NCBI RefSeq assembly: GCF_003751085.1
Contig: NZ_RJJY01000001.1
Location: 2,976,001 to 3,040,000, forward strand
Length of the DNA stretch: 64,000 nucleotides
Source of the DNA: Micromonospora sp. Llam0
Lineage (GTDB): Bacteria; Actinomycetota; Actinomycetes; Mycobacteriales; Micromonosporaceae
Reading direction: 5' to 3'
Shown here: in pieces, positions 42,344-58,118 of the stretch
Layout: each line of letters starts with the position of its first letter
Numbering within the stretch: the stretch's first letter is position 1
Notes under the pieces: generated by a model
Seen by the model: only the letters and a program-made list of their open reading frames with translations
What the model was told of the DNA's origin: nothing
Databases searched by the model: none
Made by a program: the position numbers and the translations under genes

Positions 42344-43101
42344 CGCCGTACCTCGGCGTCGCGGTGGCCGGCCGGGTCGATGACGGTACGGATGAGGGTC
42401 AGCTCGTGCGCCGTCGGCAGCCGGGTCTGCGGCACCTCCCCGCCGGTCCACAGCTCGAACCCGGTCGCCTCGTGGACCTGTTCGACGGTGACGCCGGGAT
42501 GCGTCGACACCAGTCGCATCCGGTGGTCCGGGCCGGTGAAGTCGAAGACCCCGAGGTCGCTCACCACCCGGCGCAGCTGGTGGAAGCGGGCCGCGGACGG
42601 CCCGGCAGACGCGGCCCTGTCGTAGCCGATGCCGCAGACCAGGTCGACCTGTTCGACGAAGGTCCGGCGGCTGTGCCGGGGCACCCAGTAGCTGCACGGG
42701 TGGCTGACCGTGTTGCCCGGTGCGCCCCGTACTCCGAGCAGGGCCACCTTCGGCCGGTGGAAGTCACCGATCGCCGAGATGTTGATGTTGCCGTACCGGT
42801 CGATCTGGCCCGGCCCCATCATGACGTGCCGGCGGCCGGACCAGATCAGCTCGAAGATCTGCCGGAACGGCAACGCTCCCTCGGTCTGCGTCGGGGATCC
42901 GCCGACCGGCCAGGTGCCGACGCCGAGAGCGGCTTCGCCGTCGGTGAGCAGCAGTTCCGGGGAGAAGGTGGCCCGGGCCAGCCGGGCGCCGATCGTCGGG
43001 ACCAGCCCGATCGGGCTGGCCAGGATCTCGCCGTCGCCACGCCATGCCTCGGCGCAGGCGACGACGCACACCTCGGCGCGCGTCGGCGCGGTGCCGGTCA
43101 C
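42340..43101 (-). CDS. ipdB: IpdB-like CoA-transferase-fold subunit (ring-cleaving hydrolase)
   Basis: 253-aa beta subunit of the CoA-transferase-like heteromer IpdAB, which in mycobacteria hydrolyses ring C of COCHEA-CoA. Characteristic blocks are ILASPIGLVPTIGARLARATFSPELLLTDGEA, RHVMMGPGQIDRYGNINISAIGDF and VRGAPGNTVSHPCSYWVPRHS. The start GTG at 43101 overlaps the IpdA stop as GTGA, giving tight coupling for 1:1 subunit synthesis. The frame opens slightly upstream without support. The alternative, a true acetate or succinyl CoA-transferase, is unlikely given the neighbours. Confidence 0.9.
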   Translation of the reverse strand: MTGTAPTRAEVCVVACAEAWRGDGEILASPIGLVPTIGARLARATFSPELLLTDGEAALGVGTWPVGGSPTQTEGALPFRQIFELIWSGRRHVMMGPGQIDRYGNINISAIGDFHRPKVALLGVRGAPGNTVSHPCSYWVPRHSRRTFVEQVDLVCGIGYDRAASAGPSAARFHQLRRVVSDLGVFDFTGPDHRMRLVSTHPGVTVEQVHEATGFELWTGGEVPQTRLPTAHELTLIRTVIDPAGHRDAEVRR

Positions 43102-43961
43102 CGGATCACCTCCATCTGCGGGCCCCGGGCGGCGACGGCCTGCTGGTAGCCGGCCTCGTCGGTGTCGAGGTAGCGCTGGCGGAACGCGGCCCACCGGTCG
43201 GTGCCGGCCACCGCGGCGTACTCGCGTTGGAACCGCTCGTCACGGGGGTAGTCCGGGTCGCACGAGGTGAAGTGGGCACCGCGTGCGGCCGGAACCACCC
43301 CGCGGACCTGGTGGCGGCGGACGAGTACCGAGGCGGCCGGGGTGAGCTGCTCGGTCGGCACGACCTGTTCGCAGGAGACGTAGGCGCGGTCGGCGGCCGC
43401 GCAGTACAGGTCGTCGAAGTACGGGTCGGGCCCGAGGCAGAGGGCGTTGCCGTGGATGTCGGCGCGGTGCAGGTGGACCAGGGCGGCGTCCAGCCGCAGC
43501 GCCGGCACGGCGAGCAGTTCCTCGTCGTCGTACGGCGAGCGCACGGTCCGCAGGTCCGGGTTGATCCGCATCAGGTCGGAGCCGAGTCCGACCCGGGTGG
43601 GCAGGAACGGCAGCCGGCAGGCGGCGGCGTACAGGCCGAGGTAGAGCATGCCCTCGTCGTACTCGACGGCCTCGACGGCGCCTGCCTGGCGGGCGGCCCG
43701 GAAGTGCGGCTCCAGCGGAATCGAGTCGAGCGAGACGAAGCCGTACACCAGCCGACGGACCTTGCCGGCGGCGAGCAGCAGGCCGGCGTCGGGGCCGCCG
43801 TAGGTGACGACGGTCAGGTCCTCGAGGTCCGACCGCAGGATCGCCCGGATCAGGGACATCGGCTTGCGGCGCGAGCCCCAGCCGCCGATGCCGATGGTCA
43901 TGCCGGAGCGCAGTTCGCTCACCACCTGCTCGGCGGTCATCCGTTTGTCGGTCATCGCCAC
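43098..43961 (-). CDS. ipdA: IpdA-like CoA-transferase-fold subunit (ring-cleaving hydrolase)
   Basis: 287-aa alpha subunit partnering IpdB. The N-terminal MTAEQVVSELRSGMTIGIGGWGSRRKPMSLIRAILRS, VVTYGGPDAGLLLAAGKVRRLVYGFVSLDSI and LPTRVGLGSDLM are typical of IpdA and its GctA-like relatives; ALVHLHRADIHGNALCLGPDPYFDDLY is a further conserved block. The start is a GTG at 43961 (AGGA eight bases upstream); ATG at 43955 is an alternative. It is the first gene of the ten-gene leftward operon, with a KstR2-type operator 60 bases upstream at 44021-44034. Confidence 0.9.
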   Translation of the reverse strand: MAMTDKRMTAEQVVSELRSGMTIGIGGWGSRRKPMSLIRAILRSDLEDLTVVTYGGPDAGLLLAAGKVRRLVYGFVSLDSIPLEPHFRAARQAGAVEAVEYDEGMLYLGLYAAACRLPFLPTRVGLGSDLMRINPDLRTVRSPYDDEELLAVPALRLDAALVHLHRADIHGNALCLGPDPYFDDLYCAAADRAYVSCEQVVPTEQLTPAASVLVRRHQVRGVVPAARGAHFTSCDPDYPRDERFQREYAAVAGTDRWAAFRQRYLDTDEAGYQQAVAARGPQMEVIR

Positions 43962-44020: not shown

Positions 44021-44034
44021 ACCAAGCGCTTGAT
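44021..44034. promoter_or_regulatory. KstR2-type operator upstream of ipdA
   Basis: ACCAAGCGCTTGAT fits AnCAAGnnCTTGnT, the motif described for the TetR regulator KstR2, at every fixed position. It lies between the fadA6-like stop (44053) and the ipdA start (43961), placing it in a promoter for the ipdA-led operon. HIP-CoA is the known KstR2 effector in mycobacteria; relief of repression by a pathway CoA ester is expected here. Confidence 0.82.
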
Positions 44035-44052
44035 TGGTTGGCCAGCCCGGGT

Positions 44053-45294
44053 TCAGCTCGCCCGCTCGATCACCATCGCCATTCCCTGACCACCGGCCGC
44101 GCACATGGTGACCAGCCCGAACTGCCGGTCACGTTCGCGCAGCGCCCGGATCAGGCCGGTGGTGATCCGGGCACCGGTCATCCCGAACGGGTGACCCACC
44201 GCGATCGCCCCGCCGTTGACGTTCACCCGGTCGGGATCGATGCCGAGCAGCCGCACGCAGGGCAGCACCTGGGCGGCGAAGGCCTCGTTGATCTCCACCA
44301 GGTCGATGTCGCCGATGGTCAGCCCGGCGTGCCCCAACGCCCGCCGGGTCGCCTCCACCGGGCCGAGACCCATGATCTCCGGACTGAGCGCGGAGACACC
44401 GGTGGCCACGATCCGGGCCAGCGGGGTGACGCCCAGCTCGGCGGCCCGGGCGGCGCTCATCACCACCAGAGCGGCGGCACCGTCGTTGAGCGGGCAGCAG
44501 TTCCCGGCGGTGACCGTGCCGTCCGGGCGGAACACCGGCTTGAGCGCGGCGACCGACGCCAACCGCACTCCGGGGCGGGGGCCGTCGTCGCGGTCGACGA
44601 CGGTGCCGTCCGGCAACGTCACCGGGGTGATGTCGCGGGCGTAGAAGCCGTCGGCGATCGCCTGCTCGGCCAGGTTCTGGCTGCGCACCGCGAACTCGTC
44701 CTGGTCGGCCCGGCTCACCCCGTACACCTGCGCGACGTTCTCGGCGGTCTCCCCCATCGCGATGTACGGATCCGGCGGCACCCCGGTGTCCCGGGGGTCC
44801 TGCCACCGCCCACCGTCGCCGGCGGCGCGCGCCGCGCTGCGGGCACCGGCGGCCGCGTACCGCTCGTTGCGGGTGCCCGGCAGATTGTCCGACTTGCCGG
44901 CCTCGTACCGGGAGACCATCTCCACCCCGGCGGAGATGAAGACCTCGCCCTCCCCGGCCCGGATCGCGTGGAAGGCCATCCGGGTGGTCTGCACCGACGA
45001 GGCGCAGTAGCGCTGCACGGTGGTGCCGGGGGTGCCGTCCAGGCCCAACCCGACGGCGACCATCCGGGCCAGGTTGTGGCCGTGTTCGCCGGCCGGCTGG
45101 GCGCACCCGAGCAGGACGTCCTGCACCTGCGCCGGGTCCAGGGCGGGCACCTGGGCCAGCGCGGCCCGGGTGATGTCCACGGCGAGGTCGTCGGGGCGCA
45201 GCGTGGCGAGCGAGCCCTTGCGCGCCCGGCCGATCGGCGAGCGGGCGGCGGCGACGATCACGGCCTGCGGGGTGGCGGAGTCTCGGGGCGACAT
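44053..45294 (-). CDS. Acetyl-CoA acetyltransferase, FadA6-like thiolase
   Basis: 413-aa degradative thiolase that cleaves a 3-ketoacyl-CoA with CoA. The acylated cysteine is Cys97 in QRYCASSVQ; the other active-site elements are [31 protein letters not shown] and the C-terminal CAAGGQG. Start ATG 45294 has no ribosome binding site and lies 17 bases from a KstR2-type operator, so the transcript may be leaderless. Position next to ipdAB suggests FadA6, the thiolase finishing ring-C/D degradation, but the sequence is not close enough to my memory of FadA6 to exclude another thiolase. Confidence 0.88.
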
Positions 45295-45311
45295 GGCGGG
45301 CAGCGTACCCT

Positions 45312-45325
45312 AACAAGCGCTTGGT
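45312..45325. promoter_or_regulatory. KstR2-type operator between fadA6-like gene and redox operon
   Basis: AACAAGCGCTTGGT matches AnCAAGnnCTTGnT at all fixed positions. It lies 17 bases upstream of the leftward thiolase ATG and about 165 bases upstream of the rightward monooxygenase start, so it can control the thiolase and perhaps both directions. Confidence 0.82.
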
Positions 45326-45368
45326 ACGCCATGGTCGGCCCGACCGGCAGTCCGGCAACCGGCGGCCG

Positions 45369-45416
45369 TTCTGCTGACCAGAAACGCCGCTCGACGCAGA
45401 TTCTTCTGAACAGAAG
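45369..45416. promoter_or_regulatory. Two related inverted repeats upstream of the redox operon
   Basis: TTCTG-N5-CAGAA at 45369-45383 and CTTCTG-AA-CAGAAG at 45403-45416 share the half-site TTCTG/CAGAA, with centres about 33 bases apart, close to three helical turns. They lie between the thiolase and the TTG start at 45491. This looks like a paired site for a second, unidentified regulator. Confidence 0.45.
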
Positions 45417-45490
45417 CGGGGTTAGCGTCGGGCAACCTCGGCCGGCCCGCGTCCGCAGACCGGCCCGGCCCACACCCACCAGGAGGCACG

Positions 45491-46810
45491 TTGACGGCCA
45501 GCGACGGGCAGACCGACGAGTTCATCCTGGTCGGTGGCGGCATCGGCGGGCTCGGCACCGCTCTCGCCCTGGCCCGCGCCGGGCGGCAGGTCCGGGTGCT
45601 GGAACGGGCCGCCGCCTTCGGCGAGGTCGGTGCCGGCATCCAGCTCGCCCCCAACGCCACCCGGCTGCTGCGCGAATGGGGCCTGCTCGACCGGTTGATC
45701 ACCGCCGGGCTGGCGCCCCGACACCTGGTCCTCGCCGACGCCCGCACCGGCCGGGAGCTGAACCGACTCGACCTCACCGGGCCGTTCACCGACCGCTACC
45801 TGGCCCCGTACGTCGTCGCGCACCGCCGTGACCTGCTCGACCTGCTGCTCGCCGGGGCCGCCGAGGCCGGCGCGGTACTCGAACCCGACCGCGAGGTGAC
45901 CGCGGTCCGGCCCGGCCCGGACGCCGTCGAGATCGACTGCGCCGGCGGGCAGCGTTACCGGGCCCGCGCGGTCGTCGCCGCCGACGGCCTGCACTCCCGG
46001 TTCCGCGCCCTGGTCAGCGCCGACGAACCGGAATGCAGCGGCTACGTCGCCTACCGGGGCGCCATCCCGATCGAGCAGGCCAGCCGGACCGCCGACCTGT
46101 CCGACGTGGTCGCCTTCATCGGCCCCGGGATGCACTTCGTGCAGTACGCCCTGCGCGGCGGCAGCTACTACAACCAGGTCGCGGTGTTCCGCAGCGAACG
46201 GTACCGGCAGGGCGACCCGGACTGGGGCGGCCCGGCCGAGCTGCGGGAGGCGTTCTCCCGGGCCTGCCCGCACGTGCGGACCGCCGTCCAGGCGATCCGG
46301 ACCGACCAGCGGTGGCCGATGTACGACCGGACGCCGATCGCCGACTGGGTACACGGCGGCCGGGTCACCCTGCTCGGCGACGCCGCCCATCCGATGCTGC
46401 AGTACCTGGCCCAGGGTGCCTGCCAGGCGTTGGAGGATGCCGCCGCGCTCGCCGCCGCCGTCACCCGGCACCTGCCCGCCGGGTCGATCGGCGCCGACGC
46501 CCCGGTCCACCTCGCACTTCGGGAGTTCGTCCGCGAACGGGCACCCCGCACCGCCCGGGTGCAGCGCAACGCCCGTACCTGGGGCGACATCTGGCACGTC
46601 GACGGCGTCGCCGCCGCGCTGCGCGACGACGCGCTGGCCCATCGCGGACCGACCGACTACCGGTCCACCGACTGGCTCTTCGGCCACACCCCCGCGCAGC
46701 GGGGCTCCTCGCCTGCCGCGAGCCCCGCCGCACGCGCCAGCGCCAGCGCCGCCACGGCGGCGGACGCGCCGACCGCCACCCCGACGACGAGCCGAAACGA
46801 GGCGCGATGA
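45491..46810 (+). CDS. FAD-dependent aromatic-ring-hydroxylase-type monooxygenase
   Basis: 439-aa group A flavoprotein monooxygenase, nearest in feel to 3-hydroxybenzoate 6-hydroxylase / salicylate hydroxylase. The Rossmann motif is VGGGIGGLGTALALARAG (residues 12-29), the DG motif is VVAADGLHSRFR and the GD motif is VTLLGDAAHPMLQYLAQGACQALEDA. The last 40 residues are Ala/Thr/Arg-rich and probably disordered. The start is a TTG at 45491, supported by a full AGGAGG at 45481-45486. Its stop overlaps the next ATG (ATGA), heading a five-gene rightward operon. The substrate need not be benzoate; the context suggests a ring compound linked to steroid-type catabolism. Confidence 0.88.
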   Translation: MTASDGQTDEFILVGGGIGGLGTALALARAGRQVRVLERAAAFGEVGAGIQLAPNATRLLREWGLLDRLITAGLAPRHLVLADARTGRELNRLDLTGPFTDRYLAPYVVAHRRDLLDLLLAGAAEAGAVLEPDREVTAVRPGPDAVEIDCAGGQRYRARAVVAADGLHSRFRALVSADEPECSGYVAYRGAIPIEQASRTADLSDVVAFIGPGMHFVQYALRGGSYYNQVAVFRSERYRQGDPDWGGPAELREAFSRACPHVRTAVQAIRTDQRWPMYDRTPIADWVHGGRVTLLGDAAHPMLQYLAQGACQALEDAAALAAAVTRHLPAGSIGADAPVHLALREFVRERAPRTARVQRNARTWGDIWHVDGVAAALRDDALAHRGPTDYRSTDWLFGHTPAQRGSSPAASPAARASASAATAADAPTATPTTSRNEAR

Positions 46811-48294
46811 TCCCGGACCCCGGACGCGACTGGCACCTACTGATCGACGGTCGGCTGGTCCCGGCCGGCGACGGCGGGGCGACCCCGACCCGGTCACCGG
46901 CCACCGGCGCGGTGCTCGGCCGGGCACCCGCCGCCACCGTCGCCGACGTCGACCGGGCCGTACGGGCCGGGCACGCCGCGCAACCGCAGTGGGCGGACAC
47001 CCCGCCCCGGCACCGGGCCGCCGTACTGCGGGCGATGGCCGACGTGCTGCGCGCGCACCGCGCCGAACTCGGTCACCTCGACGCCGCCGACGGCGGCAAC
47101 CCGGTGACCGCGATGACCGCCGACGTCGACCTCGCCGCCGAGCTGCTGGACCGGTTCGCCGACTGGGCCGACCAGCTGGGCGGCCGGACCGTGCCCGGCG
47201 ACGACGACCATCTGCACTACACCACCCGACGGCCGTACGGCGTGGTCGCCCGGATCGTGCCGTACAACCATCCGGTCATGTTCGCCGCCTCCCGGGTCGC
47301 GGCGCCGCTGCTGGCCGGCAACTCGGTGGTGCTCAAGGCCCCCGACCAGACGCCGCTGTCCGCGCTGCGCTTCGGTGAACTGGTCGCCGACCTGCTGCCG
47401 GCCGGGGTGCTGGCGGTGCTGACCGGCGACGGCGCCACCGTCGGGCCGGCGCTGGTCGGCCACCCGCTGGTGCGGCGGATCGCGTTCACCGGCAGCACCG
47501 GCACCGGCCAGGCGGTGCTGCGCACCGCCGCCGCGCACGGCGTCAAACAGGTGTCGCTGGAGCTCGGCGGCAAGAACCCGATGGTGATCCTGGCCGACGC
47601 CGACGTCGCCGCCGCCAGCGCCGGCGCGGTCGCCGGGATGAACTTCCACTGGACCGGCGGGCAGTCCTGCGGCTCCACTTCCCGGCTGCTGGTGCACCGC
47701 TCGCTCGCCGACGAGGTGGTCGAGCGGGTGGTGGCCGGCACCCGCGCCGTCCGGGTCGGGGATCCGCTGGACCCGGCCACCGAGATGGGCACCATGGTCT
47801 CCGCCGCCCACCGGGACCGGATCGCCGGATTCCTGCGGCAGGGCCGCGATGCCGGGCTGACCGTGGCCACCGGCGGTGGCCTGCCCGCCGGGCCCGGCGC
47901 GTACGTGGAGCCGACCGTCTTCGTCGACGTGCCGCCGGACAACCCGCTGGCCCGCGAGGAGATCTTCGGGCCGGTGCTCTGCGTCACCCCGTTCGACGAC
48001 GAGCGGGAGGCGCTACGGATGGTCAACGACTCGCCGTACGGACTGACCGCGAGTGTCTGGACCGACGACGTCGGTCGGGCGCACCGCTGGGCCCGGTCGG
48101 TCGACGCCGGCTACGTGTGGATCAACACCGCGTCCCGGCACTTCGCCGGCCTGCCGTTCGGCGGGGTCAAGGACTCCGGCCTCGGCAGCGAGGAGAGCGT
48201 CGAGGAACTGCATTCGTTCACCCAGCCCAAGTCGGTAACCGTCCACCTGGGACCGACGAACGACCCACGAGGAGGCGACCGTGGCGACCACTGA
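46807..48294 (+). CDS. Aldehyde dehydrogenase
   Basis: 495-aa NAD(P)-dependent aldehyde dehydrogenase. The general base glutamate sits in SLELGGKNPMVIL; the catalytic cysteine is in TGGQSCGSTSRLLV; REEIFGPVLCV and FGGVKDSGLGSEES are the C-terminal signatures. The start ATG overlaps the monooxygenase stop, and the 3' end overlaps the GTG of the next gene by 14 bases. It would oxidise an aldehyde formed after ring or side-chain cleavage by the partner enzymes of this operon. Substrate unknown; similarity to betaine-aldehyde/benzaldehyde-type enzymes is generic. Confidence 0.9.
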   Translation: MIPDPGRDWHLLIDGRLVPAGDGGATPTRSPATGAVLGRAPAATVADVDRAVRAGHAAQPQWADTPPRHRAAVLRAMADVLRAHRAELGHLDAADGGNPVTAMTADVDLAAELLDRFADWADQLGGRTVPGDDDHLHYTTRRPYGVVARIVPYNHPVMFAASRVAAPLLAGNSVVLKAPDQTPLSALRFGELVADLLPAGVLAVLTGDGATVGPALVGHPLVRRIAFTGSTGTGQAVLRTAAAHGVKQVSLELGGKNPMVILADADVAAASAGAVAGMNFHWTGGQSCGSTSRLLVHRSLADEVVERVVAGTRAVRVGDPLDPATEMGTMVSAAHRDRIAGFLRQGRDAGLTVATGGGLPAGPGAYVEPTVFVDVPPDNPLAREEIFGPVLCVTPFDDEREALRMVNDSPYGLTASVWTDDVGRAHRWARSVDAGYVWINTASRHFAGLPFGGVKDSGLGSEESVEELHSFTQPKSVTVHLGPTNDPRGGDRGDH

Positions 48295-49909
48295 CCACCC
48301 GGCCGACACCTACGACGGCATCATCATCGGGGCCGGCCAGCACGGCCTGATCCTCGGCACCTACCTGGCCCGGGCCGGGCTGCGGGTGCTCCTGGTCGAG
48401 CGGCGGCTGCGCCACGGCGGCGGGCTGAGCACCGAGGAACGCACCCTGCCCGGCTTCCAGCACAACCTGCACTCGATCAACCACTTCAGCGTCACCTCGA
48501 CGCCGTGGTTCCGTGACCTGGGGCTGTCCGCCCGGGTGCGCTACCTGACCCCACGGTACGAGTTCGCCCAACCGCACCGCGACGGCAGCGCGCTGGTCTT
48601 CTCCCGCGACCTCGACGAGACGCTGGCCAGCATCGGCCGGTTCAGCAAGGCCGACGCCGACACGTTCCGCGAGTGGAACGCCAAGGCCGAGGAGATGACC
48701 CAGCGGATCTTCCTGCGGGAGCGGTTCAGCGAGCCGCTGAGCCCGGCCGACCGCGACGAGCTGCTCGGCCGTACCGCGTTGGGTCGCGACTTCCTGGAGC
48801 TGACCCGGCGGCAACCCGGCGAGGTGGTCGAGGAACTGTTCACCGACGAGCGGGTCAAGGTGCTGTTCCTGTTCAAGCTGTCACTGTTCGGCACCGTGCT
48901 GCACGAGACGCTCGGCACGCACAGCCCGCTCGGCTCACTGATCCGCGCCTTCGACCTGACCACCGGCTACGAGCTGTGCGCCGGCGGCAGCTGGAACCTG
49001 GCCCGTGGGCTGATGGAGGAGTTCATCGCCGCCGGCGGGCACTTCGTCAACCAGGCACACGTAGAGCGGATCGTCGTCGAGGGCGGCCGGGCCACCGGCA
49101 TCGAGCTCGCCGACGGGCGCTCGATGCGCGCCCGGCAGTTCGTGGCCAGCACCCTGGACCTGCACCAGACCCTGGAGACGTTGATCGGCCGCGATCAACT
49201 GCCCGCCGACTACCTGGCCCGGCTGGACAAGTTCCACTACACCGGCTGGACGTTGTTCGGCCTGCACCTGGCGCTCGACGAGGCCCCGGCGTACACCTCG
49301 GCGGCCTTCGACCCGCACGTGAACGGGGCGCTGAAATACAACATCGGCTCGGAGACCATCGCCAGCCTGATGGCCGCGCACGACGACGTGGACAACGGTC
49401 GGGTACCGAGCAACGTCCAGTTCGGCGCCGGGGCGCTGAGCGTGCTCGACCCGAGCCAGGCGCCGCCGGGCAAGCACACCGCGTACGCCTGGCACGTGGT
49501 GCCGTGGGCGCCCGACGGCGACCACGAGAACCTGCGCCGCATGCAGGGCGACATGGCCGCGTCGATCATGGACAGGTGGCGGGAGTACGCGCCCAACCTG
49601 ACCGACGCCACCGTGCTGGGCTCATACACCTACACCGCGTACGAGTACGCCCAGGAGCTGATCAACATGCGGCACGGCGACATCTTCATGGGGGCGCTCA
49701 GCGCGGACCAGGTGCTGCACAACCACTTCGGCTACCGCACCCCGCTGCCGAACCTCTACCTGGCCGGCTCGGCCTGCCATCCCAACGGGGCGATCAGCGG
49801 CGGCGCCGGGTACATCGCCGCCGGGGTGATCGCCCGCGACCTGGGTGTCGAGCCGTGGTGGCAGCCGATGGACGCCCGTACCGAACTGTCCCGGCTCGGC
49901 GATGGCTGA
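48281..49909 (+). CDS. Phytoene-desaturase-like FAD-dependent oxidoreductase
   Basis: 542-aa flavoprotein with the dinucleotide motif IIIGAGQHGLILGTYLARAGLRVLLVERR at residues 13-41 followed by HGGGLSTEE, as in NAD(P)/FAD amine-oxidase/desaturase proteins. The C-terminal NLYLAGSACHPNGAISGGAGYIAAGVIARDL is the second FAD-contact region of this family. The start is a GTG at 48281 with GAGGAGG upstream, inside the aldehyde dehydrogenase gene end. No carotenoid genes are nearby, so a desaturation of an alicyclic or steroid-derived ring is more plausible than carotenoid synthesis. Function unproven. Confidence 0.85.
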   Translation: MATTDHPADTYDGIIIGAGQHGLILGTYLARAGLRVLLVERRLRHGGGLSTEERTLPGFQHNLHSINHFSVTSTPWFRDLGLSARVRYLTPRYEFAQPHRDGSALVFSRDLDETLASIGRFSKADADTFREWNAKAEEMTQRIFLRERFSEPLSPADRDELLGRTALGRDFLELTRRQPGEVVEELFTDERVKVLFLFKLSLFGTVLHETLGTHSPLGSLIRAFDLTTGYELCAGGSWNLARGLMEEFIAAGGHFVNQAHVERIVVEGGRATGIELADGRSMRARQFVASTLDLHQTLETLIGRDQLPADYLARLDKFHYTGWTLFGLHLALDEAPAYTSAAFDPHVNGALKYNIGSETIASLMAAHDDVDNGRVPSNVQFGAGALSVLDPSQAPPGKHTAYAWHVVPWAPDGDHENLRRMQGDMAASIMDRWREYAPNLTDATVLGSYTYTAYEYAQELINMRHGDIFMGALSADQVLHNHFGYRTPLPNLYLAGSACHPNGAISGGAGYIAAGVIARDLGVEPWWQPMDARTELSRLGDG

Positions 49910-50654
49910 CCGGCTGACCGGCCGGGTGGCCATCGTCACCGGCGGCGGACAAGGGCTCGGCCGGGCCTTCGCGCACCGGCTGGCCGCTGACGGGGCGCGG
50001 GTGGTGGTGGCCGACCGCAACATGGCCGCAGCCACCGCCGTTGCCGCCGAGATCGGCGACGGCGCGCTCGCCGTCGAGGTCGACGTCGCCGACCCGGACA
50101 GCGTGGCGGCGATGGTCCGGCGCGGCACCGACGCGTACGGCGGGATCGACGTCCTGGTCAACAACGCGGCGATCTTCTCCACCCTGGCGATGCGCCTGTT
50201 CGAGGAGATCGACCCGGCCGAGTGGGACCTGGTGATGGCGGTCAACGTGCGCGGACCGTTCCTGTGCACCCGGGCGGTGGCACCGGTGATGCGCCGGGCC
50301 GGCTACGGCAAGGTGGTCAACATCTCGTCGGCCACGGTGTGGATCGGCCGGCCGCACTATCTGCACTACGTCACCTCGAAGGCGGCGCTGATCGGGATGA
50401 CCCGGGCACTGGCCACCGAACTGGGCCCGGCCGGGGTACGGGTCAACGCGGTCACCCCGGGCGCCACCCGGACCGAGATTCCACGGGCCACCGTCACCCC
50501 GGAGCAGGAGGCGGCGATCGTCGCCGGCCAGGCGATCAAACGGCGGCAGGTGCCGGCCGATCTGGTCGGCGTGGTCGCCTTCCTGGCCGGGCCGGACAGC
50601 GATTTCATCACCGGGCAGACGGTCAACGTCGACGGTGGTGCGGCATTCCACTGA
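49902..50654 (+). CDS. Short-chain dehydrogenase/reductase
   Basis: 250-aa classical SDR. The cofactor motif is TGGGQGLG (residues 12-19), then LVNNAAIFS, NISSATVW with the active serine, and YVTSK as the YxxxK pair; C-terminal TGQTVNVDGGAAFH is typical. The start is the ATG at 49902, which overlaps the preceding stop by eight bases; the upstream extension of the frame is shadow. It belongs to the rightward operon from 45491. It should oxidise a hydroxyl or reduce a ketone on a substrate shared with the neighbours; acidic residues after the second strand (ADRN) suggest NAD(H). Confidence 0.9.
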   Translation: MADRLTGRVAIVTGGGQGLGRAFAHRLAADGARVVVADRNMAAATAVAAEIGDGALAVEVDVADPDSVAAMVRRGTDAYGGIDVLVNNAAIFSTLAMRLFEEIDPAEWDLVMAVNVRGPFLCTRAVAPVMRRAGYGKVVNISSATVWIGRPHYLHYVTSKAALIGMTRALATELGPAGVRVNAVTPGATRTEIPRATVTPEQEAAIVAGQAIKRRQVPADLVGVVAFLAGPDSDFITGQTVNVDGGAAFH

Positions 50655-50689
50655 GGAGTACGCGAATCGGTACGAGGATCGGAGGCACC

Positions 50690-51691
50690 ATGGCGCACCG
50701 GCTGCCGATCAGCCTGGCCTGCTGGGACTACGACCGCACCCGGGCACTGCGGGAGGGCACCGTCCGGCCGACCGGCGTGGACCTGACCTACCTGCCGCTG
50801 CCACCGGAGGAGACCTTCTTCCGGATGCTGCGCTGGCAGGAGTTCGACGTCGCCGAGATGTCCCTGTCGTCGTACGTGCTGTCGCTGTTCGCCGACGAAC
50901 CGCCGTTCGTGGCGATCCCGGTCTTCCCGTCGCGGGTGTTCCGGCACGGCTCGATCTACCTGGCGCCGTCGTCGACGGTCCGCGACCCGGCCGAGCTGGC
51001 CGGCCGCACCGTCGGGATCCCCGAGTACCAGATGACCGCGGCCGTGTGGATCCGCGGCATCCTGGCCGAGCACCACGGGCTGCCGGTGGACGGGGTCAGG
51101 TACCGCACTGGCGGTCTGCACCACGCCGGCCGGCAGGAGAAGCTGCGGCTGGACCTGCCGGACCGGTTCGACGTACGGCCGATCGGCGCGGACGAGACGC
51201 TCGACGGGCTGCTGCGTACCGGCGCGATCGATGCCCTGTACACCGCCCGGGCACCCCGGTCGTTCGAGCCGGCCGGCGGCCCGGACCGGGTCCGGCGGCT
51301 GTTCGCCGACCCGGCCGCCGCCGAACGGGCGTACCTGCGGGCCACCGGCATCTTCCCGATCATGCACACGGTGGTGCTGCGACGCGACGTCTACCAGCGG
51401 CACCGGTGGCTGGCCAGGGCGCTGCTGGACGCGTTCACCGAGGCGAAGGACCGGGTCTACGCCGAGCTACGGGAGGTGACCGCGTTGAAGGTCAGCCTGC
51501 CGTGGGTGGTGCCGGCCGCCGAGGAGGCGGCGGCGCTGCTGGGCGACGACTTCTGGCCGTACGGCGTCGAACCCAACCGGACGGTGCTGGAGACGTTCCT
51601 GCGCTACTCGCACGAACAGGGCCTGGCCCGGCGGCGGCTGGACCCGGCGGAGCTGTTCGCCCCGGAGACCCTCGCCGACACCCTGGTCTGA
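50690..51691 (+). CDS. 4,5-dihydroxyphthalate decarboxylase-like / NMT1-type protein
   Basis: 333-aa protein of the periplasmic-binding-like fold family that includes 4,5-dihydroxyphthalate decarboxylase (Pht5) and NMT1/THI5-type binding proteins. It has no signal peptide, so it is cytosolic and more likely enzymatic than a transport receptor. Recognisable parts are LACWDYDRTRALREGTVRPTGVDLTYLPL, FDVAEMSLSSYVLSLF, FVAIPVFPSRVFRHGSIYL and LAGRTVGIPEYQMTAAVWIRGIL. The ATG at 50690 has GGAGG five bases upstream. It closes the rightward operon 45491-51691. Decarboxylation of a dihydroxy-aromatic acid is the family reaction; the actual substrate here is unknown. Confidence 0.8.
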   Translation: MAHRLPISLACWDYDRTRALREGTVRPTGVDLTYLPLPPEETFFRMLRWQEFDVAEMSLSSYVLSLFADEPPFVAIPVFPSRVFRHGSIYLAPSSTVRDPAELAGRTVGIPEYQMTAAVWIRGILAEHHGLPVDGVRYRTGGLHHAGRQEKLRLDLPDRFDVRPIGADETLDGLLRTGAIDALYTARAPRSFEPAGGPDRVRRLFADPAAAERAYLRATGIFPIMHTVVLRRDVYQRHRWLARALLDAFTEAKDRVYAELREVTALKVSLPWVVPAAEEAAALLGDDFWPYGVEPNRTVLETFLRYSHEQGLARRRLDPAELFAPETLADTLV

Positions 51692-51730
51692 ACCCGACAC
51701 CTGACACACGCTGGTCTCAGTCCGGGCCGG

Positions 51731-53980
51731 CTACGACACCGCGGACCGGCGCAGCAGGGCCCGCAGGGCCGGCTCCTCCACCGGCCGGGACAGGCCGAAC
51801 CCTTGACCGAACTCGCAGCCCATCGCGGTCAGCTCGGCCCGCTGGTCGTCGTTCTCGATCCCCTCGGCCACCGTGCTGAGCCGCAGCCCCCGGCTCATCG
51901 CCAGGATCGCCCGGACCACCGGCAGGCAGGTCGGATCCTCGGCGCCGATCCGGCCCACGAACATCTTGTCGATCTTCAACTCGTCGATCGGATAGCGGTG
52001 CAGGTGGCCGAGGGAGCTGAATCCGGTGCCGAAGTCGTCCAGGGCGATCCGCACGCCGAGTCGACGCAGCGCGGACAGCTGCGACTCGATCGCGTCGTGC
52101 TCGGTGGCCAGGACGCTCTCGGTCATCTCCAGGGTCAGCGTGGCCGGCGGCAGACCGGAGCGTTCCAACGCGGCCAGCACGTCCGCGACCACGTCGCCCA
52201 GCATGAACTGGCGCACGCTGACATTGACGTTGATCTGCAACGGTCGGCCACTGAGTCGCTGCCATCCGGCACCGGTGACACAGGCCTCGCCGAGGATCCA
52301 GCGGCCGAGTGGCACGATCAGGCCACTGCCCTCGACCAGCGGGATGAACTGGTCCGGCCGGACCATTCCGCGCTGCGGGTGACGCCACCGGACCAACGCC
52401 TCCACTCCACGTACCGCACCGTCCGACAGCGTGTGGATCGGCTGGTAGTGCAGGACGAACTCGCGCCGTGACAGCGCGTCCTGGGCCTCCACCTGCAGGC
52501 GTATCCGGTCGACCGCAGGCTGGTGCAGTTCGGTGCGGTAGCGCACCCGGCGGGCCCGGGGCGCGGCCTTGGCGATCTGCAGCGCGATGTCGGCCTCGCG
52601 CATCAGCCGGTCGGTGTCGGCGTCGCCGTCGCCGATCGCGATGCCGACCCGGGCGGAGACCAACCGCAGGTGGCCGGCCACCTCGATCGGCCGGTCGAAG
52701 ACCGCCAACAGATCGTCGGCGATCCGCTCGGCGTCGCGGGCGGCGGCCCGCTCGGCGGTCAACAGCACGGCGAACTCGTCACCGCCGAGGGCAGCCAGCA
52801 GGTCGGTGGCCGCCAGCTGGTGCCGTAGCAGGCCGGCGACCGCGACCAGCAGCTCGTCGCCCGCCTGGTGGCCGAGAGCGTCGTTGACCACTTTGAAGGC
52901 GTCGATGTCGAGCAGCAGAAGCGCCACGTCGGTGGTGGTGGTGCCGAGCGCCGCGGCCAGCCGTTCCCGTAGCAGGGCCCGGTTGGGCAGTCCGGTCAGC
53001 GGATCGTGGTAGGCCTGGTGACGCAGCCGCTCGGTGAGCCGTACCCGCTCGGTGACGTCCCGAACGGCGAACAACAGCCCGCGTACGTTCGGATCGTGCA
53101 GCAGGTTCTGCCCGCTGATCTCGACCGTGGCCGGCTGGTCGGCGTCCAGGACCGGGACCCGGCACTGCAGCGTCGCCGCCGCACCGGCCTCATCGAGCAA
53201 CCGCGTAAGCCACCTGTCGGCCGCCGGCCGGTCCGCCGGGACGATCCAGGAGAGCAGCCGGTCACCGGGCAGCCCGTCGGCGAGGCCGAACACGTCCACC
53301 GCCGCCGGGCTCAGGTAGCTGACCGTGGTGTCCCGGCCGGTCAGCACGATCACGTCGCGCGACGACCGGACGACCGCCTCGAACCGGGCGGCGGTGCCGG
53401 CCTCGTACCGGCGGACCGCGACCAGCACCAGACGCAGCGCCAACGACGACAGCAGCAGGCCGGGGCCGTACTGGCCGAGCTGCACCTCGGCCAGCGTGCC
53501 GCCGGCGGCGAGCACGCCGGTGGTCATCGCCGCGAGGGTGAACCCGACCGAGAGCACCGCGGTGGGCAGGCCGCCGTAGAGCGCGCGCAGCGCGGTGCCG
53601 ACGAACAGCACCCCACCGGCCGGTAGCGCCCCGACCGCCCAGATCACCACACCGACGGCGACGGCGGCGACCAGGTCGTGGGCGATCGTCGGCTGTTCCC
53701 GCCGGTACAGCCGCACGGCGAGTACCGCCAGGACGGCGACGGCGGGTAGCACCGGCCAGGACCGGTTCGGCTCGACCACCGGTGAGATGAGCCACTGTGG
53801 AATGACGGTGGCCAGGCAGGCCAGCAGAAAGGCCAGGAAAGCCCGGCGCACCACCGGCAGCAACGGTTGGTCCGCGCCGACCTTCACCCAGGAGCGCAGC
53901 GCGGTCAGCCACTGCCGGTGGCGTCCAAGGGCCATGTCCGCCAGACTACGGTCTGCGATCATGGCACGGGGGGACGACAT
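51731..53980 (-). CDS. Membrane-bound PAS-GGDEF-EAL cyclic-di-GMP protein
   Basis: 749-aa regulator of c-di-GMP level. About residues 40-190 hold five or six transmembrane helices. A PAS domain follows at about 195-315 (DVIVLTGRDTTVSYLSPAAVDVFG). The GGDEF domain lies at about 320-485, with LGGDEFAVLL intact near residue 401, so cyclase activity is possible. The EAL domain covers about 500-745, with VEALVRW near 527, DDFGTGFSSLGHL and KIDKMFV intact, so phosphodiesterase activity is possible too. Start ATG 53980. It is convergent with the redox operon and separate from its neighbours, so it is probably not pathway-specific; ligand of the membrane/PAS part unknown. Confidence 0.92.
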   Translation of the reverse strand: MSSPRAMIADRSLADMALGRHRQWLTALRSWVKVGADQPLLPVVRRAFLAFLLACLATVIPQWLISPVVEPNRSWPVLPAVAVLAVLAVRLYRREQPTIAHDLVAAVAVGVVIWAVGALPAGGVLFVGTALRALYGGLPTAVLSVGFTLAAMTTGVLAAGGTLAEVQLGQYGPGLLLSSLALRLVLVAVRRYEAGTAARFEAVVRSSRDVIVLTGRDTTVSYLSPAAVDVFGLADGLPGDRLLSWIVPADRPAADRWLTRLLDEAGAAATLQCRVPVLDADQPATVEISGQNLLHDPNVRGLLFAVRDVTERVRLTERLRHQAYHDPLTGLPNRALLRERLAAALGTTTTDVALLLLDIDAFKVVNDALGHQAGDELLVAVAGLLRHQLAATDLLAALGGDEFAVLLTAERAAARDAERIADDLLAVFDRPIEVAGHLRLVSARVGIAIGDGDADTDRLMREADIALQIAKAAPRARRVRYRTELHQPAVDRIRLQVEAQDALSRREFVLHYQPIHTLSDGAVRGVEALVRWRHPQRGMVRPDQFIPLVEGSGLIVPLGRWILGEACVTGAGWQRLSGRPLQINVNVSVRQFMLGDVVADVLAALERSGLPPATLTLEMTESVLATEHDAIESQLSALRRLGVRIALDDFGTGFSSLGHLHRYPIDELKIDKMFVGRIGAEDPTCLPVVRAILAMSRGLRLSTVAEGIENDDQRAELTAMGCEFGQGFGLSRPVEEPALRALLRRSAVS

Positions 53981-54055
53981 TCCAGCGTTCGGTGTCCCTG
54001 GTGGACTATTCGGTGGATACCGCCGGCCGGGTCGCCGGTGGTACCCGCCGACGCG

Positions 54056-54817
54056 TCACAACAAGTTGGACCGGTGGAACCCGCCGTCGACCGGGATCAT
54101 CGCCCCGGACAGGTATGACGAGTCCTCCGAGCACAGGAAGGCGATGGCCGCGGCGAACTCGTCGTACCCGCCGACCCGGCCCAGGTGTACCGCCCGGTCC
54201 AGATGCTGCTGGCGGTCCGGGGTCCGGTTGGGAAACGGCGCGTTGCCGACGACGATCCCGTTCGACGAGACGCCACGGGGTCCGTACTCCTTGGCGATCG
54301 AGGCGATCAGGGCGCTCATCCCCGCCTTCGCGGCGGCGTAGGCCGCACCGTTGACCTGACCGTTGGTGCCGGAGATCGAGCCGATGCCGACGATGTGCCC
54401 GCGCCCGGCGGCCAGCATGCCGGGCAGTACGGCCCGGGCGCAGAGGAACGCCGAGGTGAGGTTCAGGGCGAGGAAACCGCTCCAGTCCTCGACGCTGGCG
54501 TCGGCCACCGCCGCCCACGCGGCTCCGGGCAGTGCTCCACCGGCATTGTTGACCAGGATGTCGACCGGGCCGTACCGGTCGGCTACCTCGGCGACCAGGT
54601 CGGCCACCTGGTCGGCCGAGGTGACGTCGGCCCGGCCGGCGACCGCCCGGCCGGCCAGGTCGTCGGCGGCCGCCCGGGTCTGGGCGATGCCGTCGGGGTT
54701 GATGTCGTTGACGACCACCGTCGCGCCTTCGGCGGCGAACCGCAGCGCGGTGGCCCGGCCGATTCCCCGGCCGGCTCCGGTGACCAGAGCCACCTTTCCG
54801 GTGAACCTCCCGGGCAT
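54056..54817 (-). CDS. Short-chain dehydrogenase/reductase
   Basis: 253-aa classical SDR with TGAGRGIG (residues 13-20), [11 protein letters not shown], active serine in IGSISGTNG and YAAAK. NDINPDG after the second strand suggests NAD(H). A '[35 protein letters not shown]' segment is the substrate-side lid. It lies four bases downstream of the SnoaL-like gene in a two-gene leftward unit whose promoter region contains a KstR2-type operator (55430-55443). Substrate unknown; a hydroxy/keto interconversion in the same catabolic island is inferred. Confidence 0.9.
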
Positions 54818-54821
54818 CGCG

Positions 54822-55385
54822 TCAGCCTTTCTGAAACAGGGGGTTGCGGGCGTTTTCGCTGATCACGACCATGGTGGCGAAGCGCCAGCCGACGTCGGGC
54901 TCACGTCGCATGCCGAACAGGTAGGCACCTTCGTGCTCACCCCGGCGAAACCGCAGGCCGTCGCCGCTGGTCGCGACGAGGCTGTACACGGCGGCGACCG
55001 AGGCGGTGCGGCCGTCGTCGGCGACCCGGATCACCGGAGGGTGGATGAGGTGACGCAGTTCGTAGGTGTTGATCACGTCGGCGGACGGCGGCCCGTCGGC
55101 GTCGCCGGAGCGCGGCAGCACCGGGCGGAAGTACAGCTCGCGGAGCTTCTCCTTGCCCTTGACGGTCTCGTTCAGGGTGCCGCGCAGCTGCCGCTCGAAG
55201 TCCTCGGTGTAGTACTCCAGCAGGTCGTCCCAGCGGCGCCGGTCGCACAGCCAGCCGTAGAGCATCACCAGGTCGGCGATCCGGCGGTGGTCCTCGGCGA
55301 GGGCCACCCGCTGCTCGACCGTGTCCGGGGTCCGCTCGGGCAGTTGGACCACGGCGATCAGTTCGTCGAGTTCGTCGTCAGTCAT
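54822..55385 (-). CDS. SnoaL-like / NTF2-fold protein
   Basis: 187-aa protein of the SnoaL-like polyketide-cyclase/dehydratase superfamily. The family core is seen in [34 protein letters not shown], which carries the usual Tyr and Asp/Asp-Phe positions, and the closing [14 protein letters not shown] strand. Members include isomerases such as ketosteroid isomerase and various dehydratases. The ATG at 55385 lies 45 bases from a KstR2-type operator, first in a leftward pair with an SDR gene. A ketosteroid-isomerase-like role would suit the context but is only an inference. Confidence 0.82.
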
Positions 55386-55429
55386 CGGGTCTCCACGTTT
55401 CAGGCAGGTAACAGGGTCTCGCTCAAAGT

Positions 55430-55443
55430 ACCAAGCGCTTGTT
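55430..55443. promoter_or_regulatory. KstR2-type operator between SnoaL/SDR pair and ABC transporter
   Basis: ACCAAGCGCTTGTT matches AnCAAGnnCTTGnT exactly. It sits in the 69-bp divergent gap, 45 bases from the leftward SnoaL-like start and 11 bases from the rightward ABC ATPase start, so one bound repressor could close both promoters. Confidence 0.82.
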
Positions 55444-55454
55444 AGGCTGGCAAC

Positions 55455-56552
55455 GTGCGATCCGATGAACCGGCTCCGTTGCTCGCCGTCGAGAACCTCG
55501 CCACGAGCTTCTCGACGCCGCGCGGTGTGCTGCGCGCCGTCGACGGGGTCTCCTTCACCCTCGCGCCCAGCGAGGCGCTCGGCGTCGTCGGCGAATCCGG
55601 CTCCGGCAAGTCGGTGCTGGTCCGGACCGTCATGAACATCCTGCCCCGGCAGGCGCAGGTCGCGGCGGAAAGTCGGATCCTGTTCGAGGGCCACGAGGTA
55701 CGCGACCGACGAGGCGCCGCCGCCCGACACTTCTGGGGCGCCGAGGTGGCCATGGTGTTCCAGGATCCGATGACGTCACTCAACCCGGTGCGCACCATCG
55801 GGCGGCAACTCACCGAGCCGATGCGTCACCACCTCGGGCTCAGCAGACGGACCGCCGACACCCGCGCCGCCGAACTGCTCGCCGAGGTCGGCATCAGCGA
55901 GCCGGTCCGACGGCTGAGGCAGTACCCGCACGAACTCTCCGGCGGCATGCGGCAACGCGTCATGATCGGCATCGCGCTGTCCTGCTCACCCAAGCTGCTC
56001 ATCGCCGACGAGCCGACCACCGCGCTGGACGTGACCGTGCAGAAGGAGATCCTCGACCTGCTCGCCCGGCTGCGTACCGAACTGCGGATGGCGATGATCC
56101 TGATCAGCCACGACCTGGCCGTGGTGTCCGGCCGCACCGACCGGACCATGGTCATGTACGCCGGACGGGTGGCCGAGATCGGTCCGACCGCCGAGCTGTT
56201 CCGGCACACCCGGCACCCGTACACGGCGGCCCTGCTGCGCTCGACCCCCCGGATCGACCAGCCCAGCCACACCCCGCTGGAGGTGATCGCCGGCGGCGCC
56301 CCCGACCTGGTGCACCCACCGCCCGGCTGCCGCTTCGCCCCCCGCTGCCGGCAGGCCCGGCCCCGGTGTCAGCAGGAGGACCCGCGTCTGGTCGACGACC
56401 CCGGGCACCGGTACGCCTGTTTCTACCCGGTGGGCACCGCCGCCGGTGACCGGGCGCTCGCCGAAAACCTCGCCGCCGGCCGGACCGGGGCCGGGCTCGA
56501 CCTCGGGCCGGTCAGCACCGACCAGTCCACCCTCGACGGGGCGGTGCAGTGA
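55455..56552 (+). CDS. Oligopeptide-type ABC transporter, ATP-binding protein (DppD/OppD-like)
   Basis: 365-aa ATPase of the peptide/nickel/opine importer family. Walker A is GESGSGKSVL, the signature is LSGGMRQRV, Walker B is LLIADEPTTALD. The C-terminal oligopeptide-transporter extension with conserved cysteines is present (HPPPGCRFAPRCRQARPRCQ). The start is a GTG at 55455 without ribosome binding site and 11 bases from a KstR2-type operator, so translation may be leaderless. It overlaps the second ATPase gene. The matching permeases and binding protein lie on the other strand at 60758-64000. The substrate may be an amphipathic catabolite rather than a peptide. Confidence 0.92.
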   Translation: MRSDEPAPLLAVENLATSFSTPRGVLRAVDGVSFTLAPSEALGVVGESGSGKSVLVRTVMNILPRQAQVAAESRILFEGHEVRDRRGAAARHFWGAEVAMVFQDPMTSLNPVRTIGRQLTEPMRHHLGLSRRTADTRAAELLAEVGISEPVRRLRQYPHELSGGMRQRVMIGIALSCSPKLLIADEPTTALDVTVQKEILDLLARLRTELRMAMILISHDLAVVSGRTDRTMVMYAGRVAEIGPTAELFRHTRHPYTAALLRSTPRIDQPSHTPLEVIAGGAPDLVHPPPGCRFAPRCRQARPRCQQEDPRLVDDPGHRYACFYPVGTAAGDRALAENLAAGRTGAGLDLGPVSTDQSTLDGAVQ

Positions 56553-57585: not shown

Positions 57586-58053
57586 TCAGTCCGCGGCGGC
57601 CGGCGCGACCAGCAACTCGTCGCGGCGCATCCAGTCCAGCACGTGTTCCCGACGGCTGATCAGCCAGCGGCCGTCGACCCGGACCAGTTCGTCGAGGTAG
57701 CGCAGACCCCGGGTGCGCATCCGGGGGCCGGTGGCCGGCCGGTCGATCAGGTGGGCCTGGGCGTAGGTCTGCGCCACCGCACGGTCGCCGGTCACCTCGG
57801 CGAAGTGGTTGCCGATGAAGTGCATCGACGCCCGCAGGTCGACGATCTCCAGGGGGAACCGGACCGGCGACCGGCCGGTGAAGAACGCCATGATCCGGTC
57901 GATCCCGCCGGCTACCCGTACTCCTTCGTAGATTCCCTCCACGTCATCGGTGAAGCAGCCACGCAGCCGGTCCCAGTCCCGGCTGTCGATCGCCATGAAG
58001 TACCGGTTCACCACGTCGGCGATGGCCAGCCGGTCGGCGGTCAGCGTTTCCAT
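57586..58053 (-). CDS. SnoaL-like / NTF2-fold protein
   Basis: 155-aa single-domain protein of the SnoaL-like superfamily. The N-terminal LAIADVVNRYFMAIDSRDWDRLRGCFTDDVEG carries the conserved Tyr and Asp-Asp pattern, and the C-terminal strands TRGLRYLDELVRVDGRWLISRREHVLDWMRRDE complete the cone-shaped fold. A His in ASMHFIGNHFAEV lines the expected pocket. The start is ATG 58053, with GGGAG upstream; the longer frame is unsupported. Divergent from a second SnoaL-like gene of similar size. Reaction unknown (dehydratase, isomerase or cyclase). Confidence 0.82.
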   Translation of the reverse strand: METLTADRLAIADVVNRYFMAIDSRDWDRLRGCFTDDVEGIYEGVRVAGGIDRIMAFFTGRSPVRFPLEIVDLRASMHFIGNHFAEVTGDRAVAQTYAQAHLIDRPATGPRMRTRGLRYLDELVRVDGRWLISRREHVLDWMRRDELLVAPAAAD

Positions 58054-58080
58054 GACCCGATCTCCCGTTCTTGAGTCGAC

Positions 58081-58102
58081 GGTGCCGCGCAACTGCGGCA
58101 CC
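58081..58102. promoter_or_regulatory. Perfect 8-bp inverted repeat between two SnoaL-like genes
   Basis: GGTGCCGC and GCGGCACC flank a six-base centre (GCAACT) in the 65-bp gap between divergent genes. It could be an operator shared by both or a hairpin in a leader RNA. Confidence 0.4.
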
Positions 58103-58118
58103 CAATCGAAAGGTGTGC

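Follow-up and report, generated by a model that had tools for sequence, protein, structure and literature searches.

Probable KstR2-type operators in a Micromonospora gene cluster that joins lower steroid C/D-ring genes to oligopeptide-type ABC importers

The window analyzed here, a 64-kb stretch of the Micromonospora sp. Llam0 genome (G000:C1:2976001-3040000, where G000 is the source genome, 8.9 Mb in two contigs), carries three 14-bp palindromic sites that exactly fit the pattern AnCAAGnnCTTGnT and are very probably operators of the KstR2 type. This motif was defined by Kendall et al. (PMC3068626), who, in the excerpt of their paper considered, describe binding of KstR2Mtb to three such sites in electrophoretic mobility shift assays and list a site from the R. 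jostii kstR2 promoter in which AACAAGCGCTTGGT is present. This 14-mer is identical to site 2 and, read on the opposite strand, to site 3. The sites and the regulator gene are as follows, with coordinates counted from the first base of the window and continued beyond its end where so marked.

33143 to 33156, unstranded: further probable KstR2 operator, ACCAAGCATTTGCT, one mismatch
44021 to 44034, unstranded: putative operator 1, 66 bp upstream of ipdA; TACATT abuts on the ipdA side
45312 to 45325, unstranded: putative operator 2, 18 bp upstream of the thiolase gene; TAGGGT on the thiolase side only
55430 to 55443, unstranded: putative operator 3, between the SnoaL and oppD genes; TACTTT and TAGGCT abut on the two sides
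65157 to 65170 (continued, outside the window): one-mismatch candidate operator facing the SBP1 (solute-binding protein) run
65297 to 65974 (continued; 3041297 to 3041974), plus strand: kstR2, TetR family, 225 residues, starting 1,297 bases past the window end

A first-pass annotation of the window had reported the three exact sites as intergenic matches to the KstR2 motif, and a window scan together with the gene positions confirmed their location, their exact fit and their intergenic placement. Scanning the window with AnCAAGnnCTTGnT returned these three sites and a single one-mismatch site, compared with a mean of 0.28 and a maximum of 2 (one mismatch or fewer) in shuffled sequence. Many equally good matches at random coding positions of the genome, the outcome which that annotation had named as speaking against its claim, were not seen, as only four exact matches are present genome-wide and all of them lie inside 21 kb (G000:C1:3020021-3041242). 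The fourth is found at 3041229 (continued coordinates 65229-65242), 1.2 kb beyond the window end. The three sites are real and belong to a larger set. With one mismatch allowed, ten sites extend across 56 kb (33143, 44021, 45312, 55430, 65157, 65229, 74100, 79347, 79450 and 89342, in continued coordinates), and this cluster includes two Opp-type importers. A 45.3-kb stretch, picked after the sites had been seen, holds at least nine sites with one mismatch or fewer, compared with 0.68 expected from the genome-wide density (Poisson 4.5e-8; the count of nine is a lower bound). Five of the six genomic copies of CAAGCGCTTG likewise fall inside the 45-kb cluster, while the sixth lies outside the genes found by a simple gene caller.

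The first-pass annotation had placed the regulator elsewhere in the genome. A search for KstR2 gave no match inside the 64-kb window, but a kstR2-like gene lies close beyond its end, and the exact operator at 3041229 is situated 55 bp upstream of its start, in its own promoter. This own-promoter site and the clustering of the sites bear out the KstR2-type identity of the operators. The encoded protein matched the structures 2ibd (8.9e-51), which we take to be a R. jostii protein, and 4w97/4w1u (4e-45), presumably the KstR2 of M. tuberculosis, over approximately residues 6-193, while no NCBIfam model was found at 1e-40. The helix-turn-helix stretch GILSGSLYHHF is common to this protein and 4w97, and the ligand-domain stretch YRFIRDAVW fits the motif KstR2-5 (YRFIRD..W); R162 and W166 are important for HIP-CoA. 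A KstR2 match at E 1e-25 or better was obtained in 30 of 101 genomes, the source genome included. Among the named loci (the best 80 of a longer list, with a KstR2 gene called by script in 74), 36 of the 74 had an exact site within approximately 350 bp upstream of that gene, 14 had a one-mismatch site and 24 had neither, compared with 29 exact and 38 one-mismatch sites among 1,600 stretches drawn at random from these loci. This enrichment indicates that the motif tends to travel with kstR2. The assignment of the operators and of their regulator is one that we hold with high confidence, judging from sequence.

Closer examination of the operator flanks points to a possible mode of repression. A -10-like TANNNT hexamer beginning at the last base of the palindrome is present in four of the six flanks of the three window sites, namely those facing ipdA, the thiolase gene, the SnoaL gene and oppD. 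The remaining two flanks, which lack the hexamer, are directed at the end of the thiolase gene and at the FAD monooxygenase operon 166 bp away; since no such hexamer abuts on the latter side, KstR2 control of the operon starting at 45491 appears doubtful. Over all loci, the hexamer was found at the last operator base in 57 of the 132 distinct flanks that have a gene start no more than 120 bp away and in 7 of the 51 that have none within 400 bp, the final T of the operator being fixed by the motif so that the abutting offset needs two further matching bases and other offsets three. A separate flank count gave 10 of 25 for the genus and 51 of 147 for the others. In many actinobacterial loci, the KstR2-type operator thus frequently runs into a -10-like TANNNT that begins at its last base. 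The abutment suggests repression by covering of the -10 region, that is, by promoter occlusion.

The genes around operators 1 and 2 are listed below. IpdF, FadE31 and FadE32 are named here after the genes of a comparison genome (G092) with which they share identity, these having been assigned by gene order as in Table 1 of PMC5380842.

33212 to 33880, plus: isochorismatase-fold hydrolase (PF00857, 1.4e-43), downstream of site 33143
33921 to 35582, minus: AMP-dependent acyl-CoA ligase (NF005801, 224 bits, below the cut-off of 657; PDB 5wm2, 1.8e-59)
35579 to 36484, minus: luciferase-like monooxygenase (PF00296)
36484 to 37362, minus: enoyl-CoA hydratase, PRK08290 type (NF006140, 456 bits, cut-off 280)
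37359 to 38405, minus: FadE32-like acyl-CoA dehydrogenase (39% to the G092 gene in FadE32 position)
38418 to 39557, minus: FadE31-like acyl-CoA dehydrogenase (54% to the G092 gene in FadE31 position)
39561 to 40361, minus: EchA20-like hydrolase (NF005925, 408.8 bits, cut-off 260; 67% to the G092 EchA20-position gene)
40396 to 41046, minus: IpdF-like SDR (61% to the G092 IpdF-position gene)
41219 to 42343, minus: IpdC-like flavin enzyme (PF03060; 63% to the G092 IpdC-position gene)
42340 to 43101, minus: IpdB-like CoA-transferase fold subunit (PF01144; 56% to the G092 IpdB-position gene)
43098 to 43955, minus: IpdA (PDB 6co6 'Probable CoA-transferase alpha subunit', 1e-95; 57% to G092)
44053 to 45294, minus: thiolase, PRK07851 type (NF005890, 701 bits)
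45491 to 46810, plus: FAD monooxygenase (PF01494), first gene of a plus-strand operon, 166 bp from operator 2

With transcription units assigned from strand and spacing, operator 1 precedes ipdA, ipdB, ipdC and the ipdF-like, echA20-like, FadE31-like, FadE32-like, hydratase, luciferase-like and ligase genes, and operator 2 precedes the thiolase gene. The structure 6co6 is one that we take to be IpdA. The view that the first two sites flank classical pathway genes therefore holds for IpdA, IpdB, IpdC, EchA20 and the IpdF-, FadE31- and FadE32-like proteins but not for the thiolase, which is of the PRK07851 type, nor for FadD3, FadA6, KshA and HsaC-type proteins, whose models have no match in the seven genus genomes. 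Identification of the thiolase as FadA6 was rejected, as it shares 33% identity with the FadA6-type protein of G092. The closest solved relatives of the cluster ligase are aryl-AMP ligases, and it is nearer to aryl-AMP/benzoate-type ligases than to FadD3. For the hydratase at 36484 to 37362 an EchA13/ScdN-like role is our guess. According to the portion of PMC5380842 considered, FadD3 activates HIP, HIP-CoA is the KstR2 effector, and IpdF, IpdC, EchA20 and IpdAB together with a thiolase convert 5-OH HIC-CoA to MOODA-CoA. It is this part of the pathway, from 5-OH HIC-CoA to MOODA-CoA, that the cluster would cover.

The genes around operator 3 and beyond encode the importers and other functions.

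54056 to 54793, minus: SDRx, an SDR (PF13561), downstream of the SnoaL gene
54822 to 55385, minus: SnoaL_4-like protein (PF13577, 7.9e-15), present in five of the seven genus genomes
55455 to 56552, plus: OppD1 ATPase of importer 1 (PF00005 and PF08352)
56552 to 57577, plus: OppF1 ATPase of importer 1 (PF00005 and PF08352)
58646 to 59872, minus: class I/II aminotransferase (PF00155), last gene of the SBP1 run
59902 to 60705, minus: SDRa, an SDR
60758 to 61633, minus: OppC1 permease (PF00528)
61626 to 62582, minus: OppB1 permease (PF00528 and PF19300)
62611 to 63276, minus: SDRb, an SDR
63447 to 64000, continuing to 65084 past the window edge, minus: SBP1, a family 5 solute-binding protein (PF00496, 5.9e-59)
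74233 to 83521 (continued): importer 2 and a Baeyer-Villiger monooxygenase (BVMO) set, with candidate operators at 74100, 79347 and 79450
83555 to 89283 (continued): aldehyde dehydrogenase-SDR-old yellow enzyme (OYE)-flavoprotein run, with a candidate operator at 89342

Operator 3 lies between the SnoaL and SDR genes on one side and those of OppD1 and OppF1 on the other. The OppD1 frame opens in the list of reading frames with a GTG 11 bases after the operator, and the simple gene caller chose 55479. Site 65157 faces the genes of SBP1, an SDR, OppB1, OppC1, a second SDR and the aminotransferase, so that importer 1 appears to be split over two operator-bearing transcripts. The one-mismatch sites at 74100, 79347, 79450 and 89342 precede, respectively, SBP2, the BVMO-hydrolase-SDR set, OppB2-OppC2-OppDF2 and the aldehyde dehydrogenase-SDR-OYE-flavoprotein run. 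Both importers are of the Opp/Dpp type by their family 5 solute-binding proteins, BPD_transp_1 permeases and ATPases with an oligo_HPY tail. The PDB chains nearest to the solute-binding proteins carry mixed names and indicate no single ligand, and the SnoaL protein gave no PDB match at 0.01.

Three further sets of genes are situated within this region. Two more SnoaL_4 proteins are encoded divergently at 57586-58583, between the halves of importer 1 and without a KstR2-type site. A GGDEF-EAL protein is encoded at 51731-53935 within the catabolic cluster, and its gene is retained in G005 after loss of the cluster. Gentisate dioxygenase-, maleylpyruvate isomerase- and FAH-type genes next to an IclR gene, together with a KstD/ChcC-like flavoprotein gene, occupy 70499-74054 (continued) inside the cluster and have no KstR2-type site of their own.

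Conservation was followed in the seven genus genomes of the sample, the source genome included. The cluster is syntenic in G000, G001, G003, G004 and G006, and in these five genomes all 14 bases of operators 1, 2 and 3 are invariant. Of 110 flanking columns, 76, 47 and 101 are invariant at sites 1, 2 and 3, respectively, the value of 47 being lowered by gap columns; site 3 thus lies in a generally conserved stretch and its invariance is the least telling of the three. Site 33143 is exact in G001, has one mismatch in G003 and G006 and is absent from G005, while G004 gave no alignment. The SnoaL gene is missing from G002 and G005. In G005 (tblastn, at approximately 1940 kb of C1) a natural deletion has removed the tested pathway and importer genes from the locus, leaving kstR2 (95%) together with its exact operator, a partial SDRx copy, the GGDEF-EAL gene and the 33212 hydrolase, the last without site 33143. 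In the stretches retrieved for G004 and G006, tblastn found no BVMO or hydrolase gene, and the 79347 site is missing too, whereas SBP2, OppB2, OppC2 and OppDF2 are retained with their sites. The BVMO, hydrolase and SDR genes of G001 were only partly matched in one frame (region positions approximately 46000-48200), which suggests broken genes or sequence errors. For 13 tested genes dN/dS was 0.03-0.35 where obtained; the kstR2 value excludes G003 and G006, in which the gene has 91-94% identity and no stop was seen.

Markers of the upper pathway were searched for in the 101 genomes with models for FadD3 (NF005801, E 1e-160), KshA_C (PF19298, 1e-15), FadA6 (NF005865, 1e-160) and an HsaC-type protein (TIGR03213, 1e-30). 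Positive genomes numbered 20, 17, 23 and 21, respectively; the HsaC-type test uses a biphenyl-dioxygenase model, and 20 of the 21 positives reach an E value of 1e-75 or lower, only three of them lying above the curated cut-off. None of the four models had a match in any of the seven genus genomes (for FadD3 and FadA6, among the 13 or 16 top-ranking candidates of a first screen in each genome), while among 23 KstR2-positive genomes from outside the genus FadD3 was found in 18, KshA_C in 16, FadA6 in 20, the HsaC-type protein in 18 and all four in 15. In the source genome KshA_C was negative even at 1e-3, and the best FadD3-family match, with all 61 candidates scored, reached 357.8 bits compared with the cut-off of 657. 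With no match to any of the four models in the genus, the regulon appears disconnected from the degradation of whole steroids.

Taken together, sites, clustering, conservation, regulator family, gene content and the missing matches to the four models, all seen in the sequence, are consistent with an importer-fed partial C/D-ring pathway under KstR2 that lacks its head, and in this explanation as a whole we place moderate confidence. Binding, ligand, transport substrate and flux are the parts that it predicts. The three sites would be bound by the KstR2 orthologue whose gene lies 1.3 kb beyond the window, and a dimer on each 14-bp palindrome would cover the promoter at the abutting -10 hexamer and so block RNA polymerase. 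Its release would be brought about by a substrate-derived CoA thioester, by analogy with HIP-CoA, the published effector in other actinobacteria. The controlled set would be one cluster of approximately 56 kb comprising lower C/D-ring enzymes (IpdF, IpdC, EchA20, IpdAB, FadE31/32-like proteins, hydratase, thiolase and the aryl-ligase-like CoA ligase), two Opp-type ABC importers, and SnoaL, SDR, BVMO, hydrolase and aldehyde dehydrogenase genes. The importers would most likely bring in a trimmed hydrindane(one) carboxylic acid or its conjugate, a cluster ligase would make the CoA ester, and the cluster enzymes would then open both rings. The substrate is most likely such an imported ready-made hydrindane acid and not a whole steroid. 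Only tentatively do we suggest that, in this Micromonosporaceae genus, KstR2 no longer serves steroid degradation and has taken on a new role, controlling uptake and catabolism of a hydrindane carboxylic acid that is acquired ready-made and enters at the HIC-CoA level. The acid may be scavenged from other steroid degraders or, more speculatively as to its identity, may be a non-steroid hydrindane acid such as an amino-acid-conjugated metabolite of the coronafacoyl type; a conjugate would be in keeping with the presence of the Opp importers, the aminotransferase and the isochorismatase-fold hydrolase. The established role of KstR2 is that of a switch governing the last two steroid rings, with supply from inside the cell, and if the proposed import is true, C/D-ring fragments or look-alike natural products would be traded between microbes as food. 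The cluster supplies named binding proteins and promoters for direct tests.

Several observations weigh against this explanation. Genome-wide, AnCAAGnnCTTGnT had four exact matches compared with four for the reversed control pattern and 133 one-mismatch matches compared with 142, while CAAGCGCTTG had six compared with ten and VMAAGCGCTTKB 12 compared with 14. The number of motif matches was consequently rejected as evidence; it is not above chance, whereas the clustering is, so that position and not count carries the argument. The KstR2-3 signature [ED][DE][RM]N[RK][QE]QRK was not found in the cluster KstR2, and as it is described as restricted to Mycobacteriaceae (PMC13176608, in excerpt) it does not define the wider family. 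Family 5 binding proteins take varied solutes. Equivalents of FadE30, FadE33, Rv3548c and Rv3549c, as judged against G092, were not seen in the cluster, with no genome-wide search made for them. Lack of the upper-pathway markers is not peculiar to the genus, as 8 of the 23 KstR2-positive relatives are without at least one of them (markers matched: none in G009 and G059, one in G015 and G026, two in G088 and G099, three in G046 and G049), and scoring against the FadD3 and FadA6 models covered just the 13 or 16 top-ranking candidates of a first screen in each genome. Oxidation of the HIP side chain could also proceed via other enzymes of the genome. The main doubt over the acting regulator comes from a second KstR2-like TetR protein (G000:C1:2151000-2151584) with 61% identity to the cluster KstR2, which could share or replace its role.

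The main rival to an importer-fed partial pathway is an ordinary KstR2 regulon of a whole-steroid degrader, in which rings A and B would be degraded by divergent enzymes or another route and HIP would be made in the cell. The KstD/ChcC-like protein, which matches 3-ketosteroid dehydrogenases in the PDB yet falls under the cut-off of every NCBIfam equivalog shown, is compatible with it, as are the gentisate dioxygenase-, maleylpyruvate isomerase- and FAH-type genes, the BVMO, hydrolase and SDR genes behind an operator and the OYE genes nearby. On the other hand, no site with one mismatch or fewer lies between the gentisate gene and the divergent IclR gene, and the presence of KshA_C, HsaC-type and FadD3 proteins in 16, 18 and 18 of the 23 KstR2-positive relatives contrasts with none in the seven genus genomes. 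We regard this rival as unlikely.

That the sites are mainly regulated by a different TetR protein, the 61% paralogue at 2151 kb being the foremost candidate, is quite unlikely. The search for KstR2-family proteins, whose failure was to speak against the first-pass claim, returned both proteins, and the paralogue has a nearly identical helix-turn-helix stretch. It has a 58-60% match in all seven genus genomes and is the sole KstR2 match in G002. In the source genome, however, no KstR2-type site with one mismatch or fewer was found within 34 kb around it, while the cluster kstR2 has an exact promoter site and sits among the sites; the 220 bp before the paralogue gene hold no 14-base palindrome (one mismatch or fewer) in G000 or G002, and G002, with the paralogue only, is without the SnoaL gene. 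A reported frame break in the paralogue gene was dropped, as translation shows the stop to be its normal end.

That the importer and the SnoaL/SDR pair are merely neighbors, with the 55430 site regulating one of them or none, is very unlikely. A KstR2 site between divergent genes can act in one direction only, as described for the M. smegmatis kstR2/MSMEG_6010 region in the excerpt of PMC3068626, and the conserved setting of site 3 lessens the weight of its invariance. In contrast, operator 3 has -10-like hexamers on both sides and 14 of 14 invariant bases, the other half of importer 1 has an operator of its own, and importer 2 has operators as well. The first-pass linkage of this site to a SnoaL/SDR pair and an Opp-type importer stands in that the site lies between them. 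The tie of an importer to such a site is not unique to this genome, as detailed below. A decaying remnant of a steroid regulon with no present function, to which the missing upper-pathway markers, the loss of the locus in G005 and the partly matched G001 genes could point, is highly improbable given the dN/dS values, the operators invariant in five genomes and the sites at importers and extra operons.

Among known systems, the cluster is most readily compared with the KstR2 regulon of M. tuberculosis, M. smegmatis and R. jostii, as described in the excerpts of PMC3068626 and PMC5380842. Common to both are the TetR family, the 14-bp motif, a site in the regulator's own promoter, and ipdABC/echA20 with FadE genes behind sites. 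The known regulon has three sites, whereas ten with one mismatch or fewer are spread over 56 kb here; two Opp-type importers, a BVMO, SnoaL and other genes lie behind them, FadD3 and FadA6 are without match, and KshA and HsaC-type proteins are without match in the genus. For Nocardioides, KstR2 sites have been predicted in 29 operons according to a work cited in the literature considered.

Dedicated import of partly degraded steroid acids is known from R. jostii RHA1, where, as described in the excerpt of PMC8399759, the ABC transporter CamABCD imports A-ring-aromatized and the MFS transporter CamM perhydroindane cholate metabolites. The proposed system resembles these in principle; the known perhydroindane importer is, however, an MFS and not an ABC transporter, a difference that tells against the explanation proposed here. 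The Micromonospora importers are of the Opp-type ABC class and lie behind KstR2-type sites, whereas CamABCD/CamM are presumably controlled by KstR3 and not KstR2. No mention of an Opp importer under KstR2 was found in the titles and abstract openings of the open-licence papers searched.

Operators heading ABC genes were nonetheless seen in 7 rows from 5 sources among 10 relative regions and 80 named loci, with at least two genomes in both sets. Opp-type genes were headed in Enemella dayhoffiae and LIV-type genes in Virgisporangium ochraceum and G099, with weaker LIV-like cases in L093, L098 and G099. An importer behind a KstR2-type site thus recurs, though in only a small share of the loci seen. 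The KstR2 locus of Enemella dayhoffiae (L100) is similar in its Opp-type importer (47% for OppB2, 44% for OppC2 and 31% for SBP2) and in an exact site near kstR2, and differs in gene order and in the FadE30- and FadE33-like genes alongside. In Virgisporangium ochraceum (G060/L085) and Dactylosporangium siamense (G049/L086), which belong to the same family, several genes of the ipd operon are 71-86% identical and a site is present at kstR2; both differ from the Micromonospora cluster in that FadD3 and FadA6 are present, and Virgisporangium differs further in the LIV-type importer behind its site.

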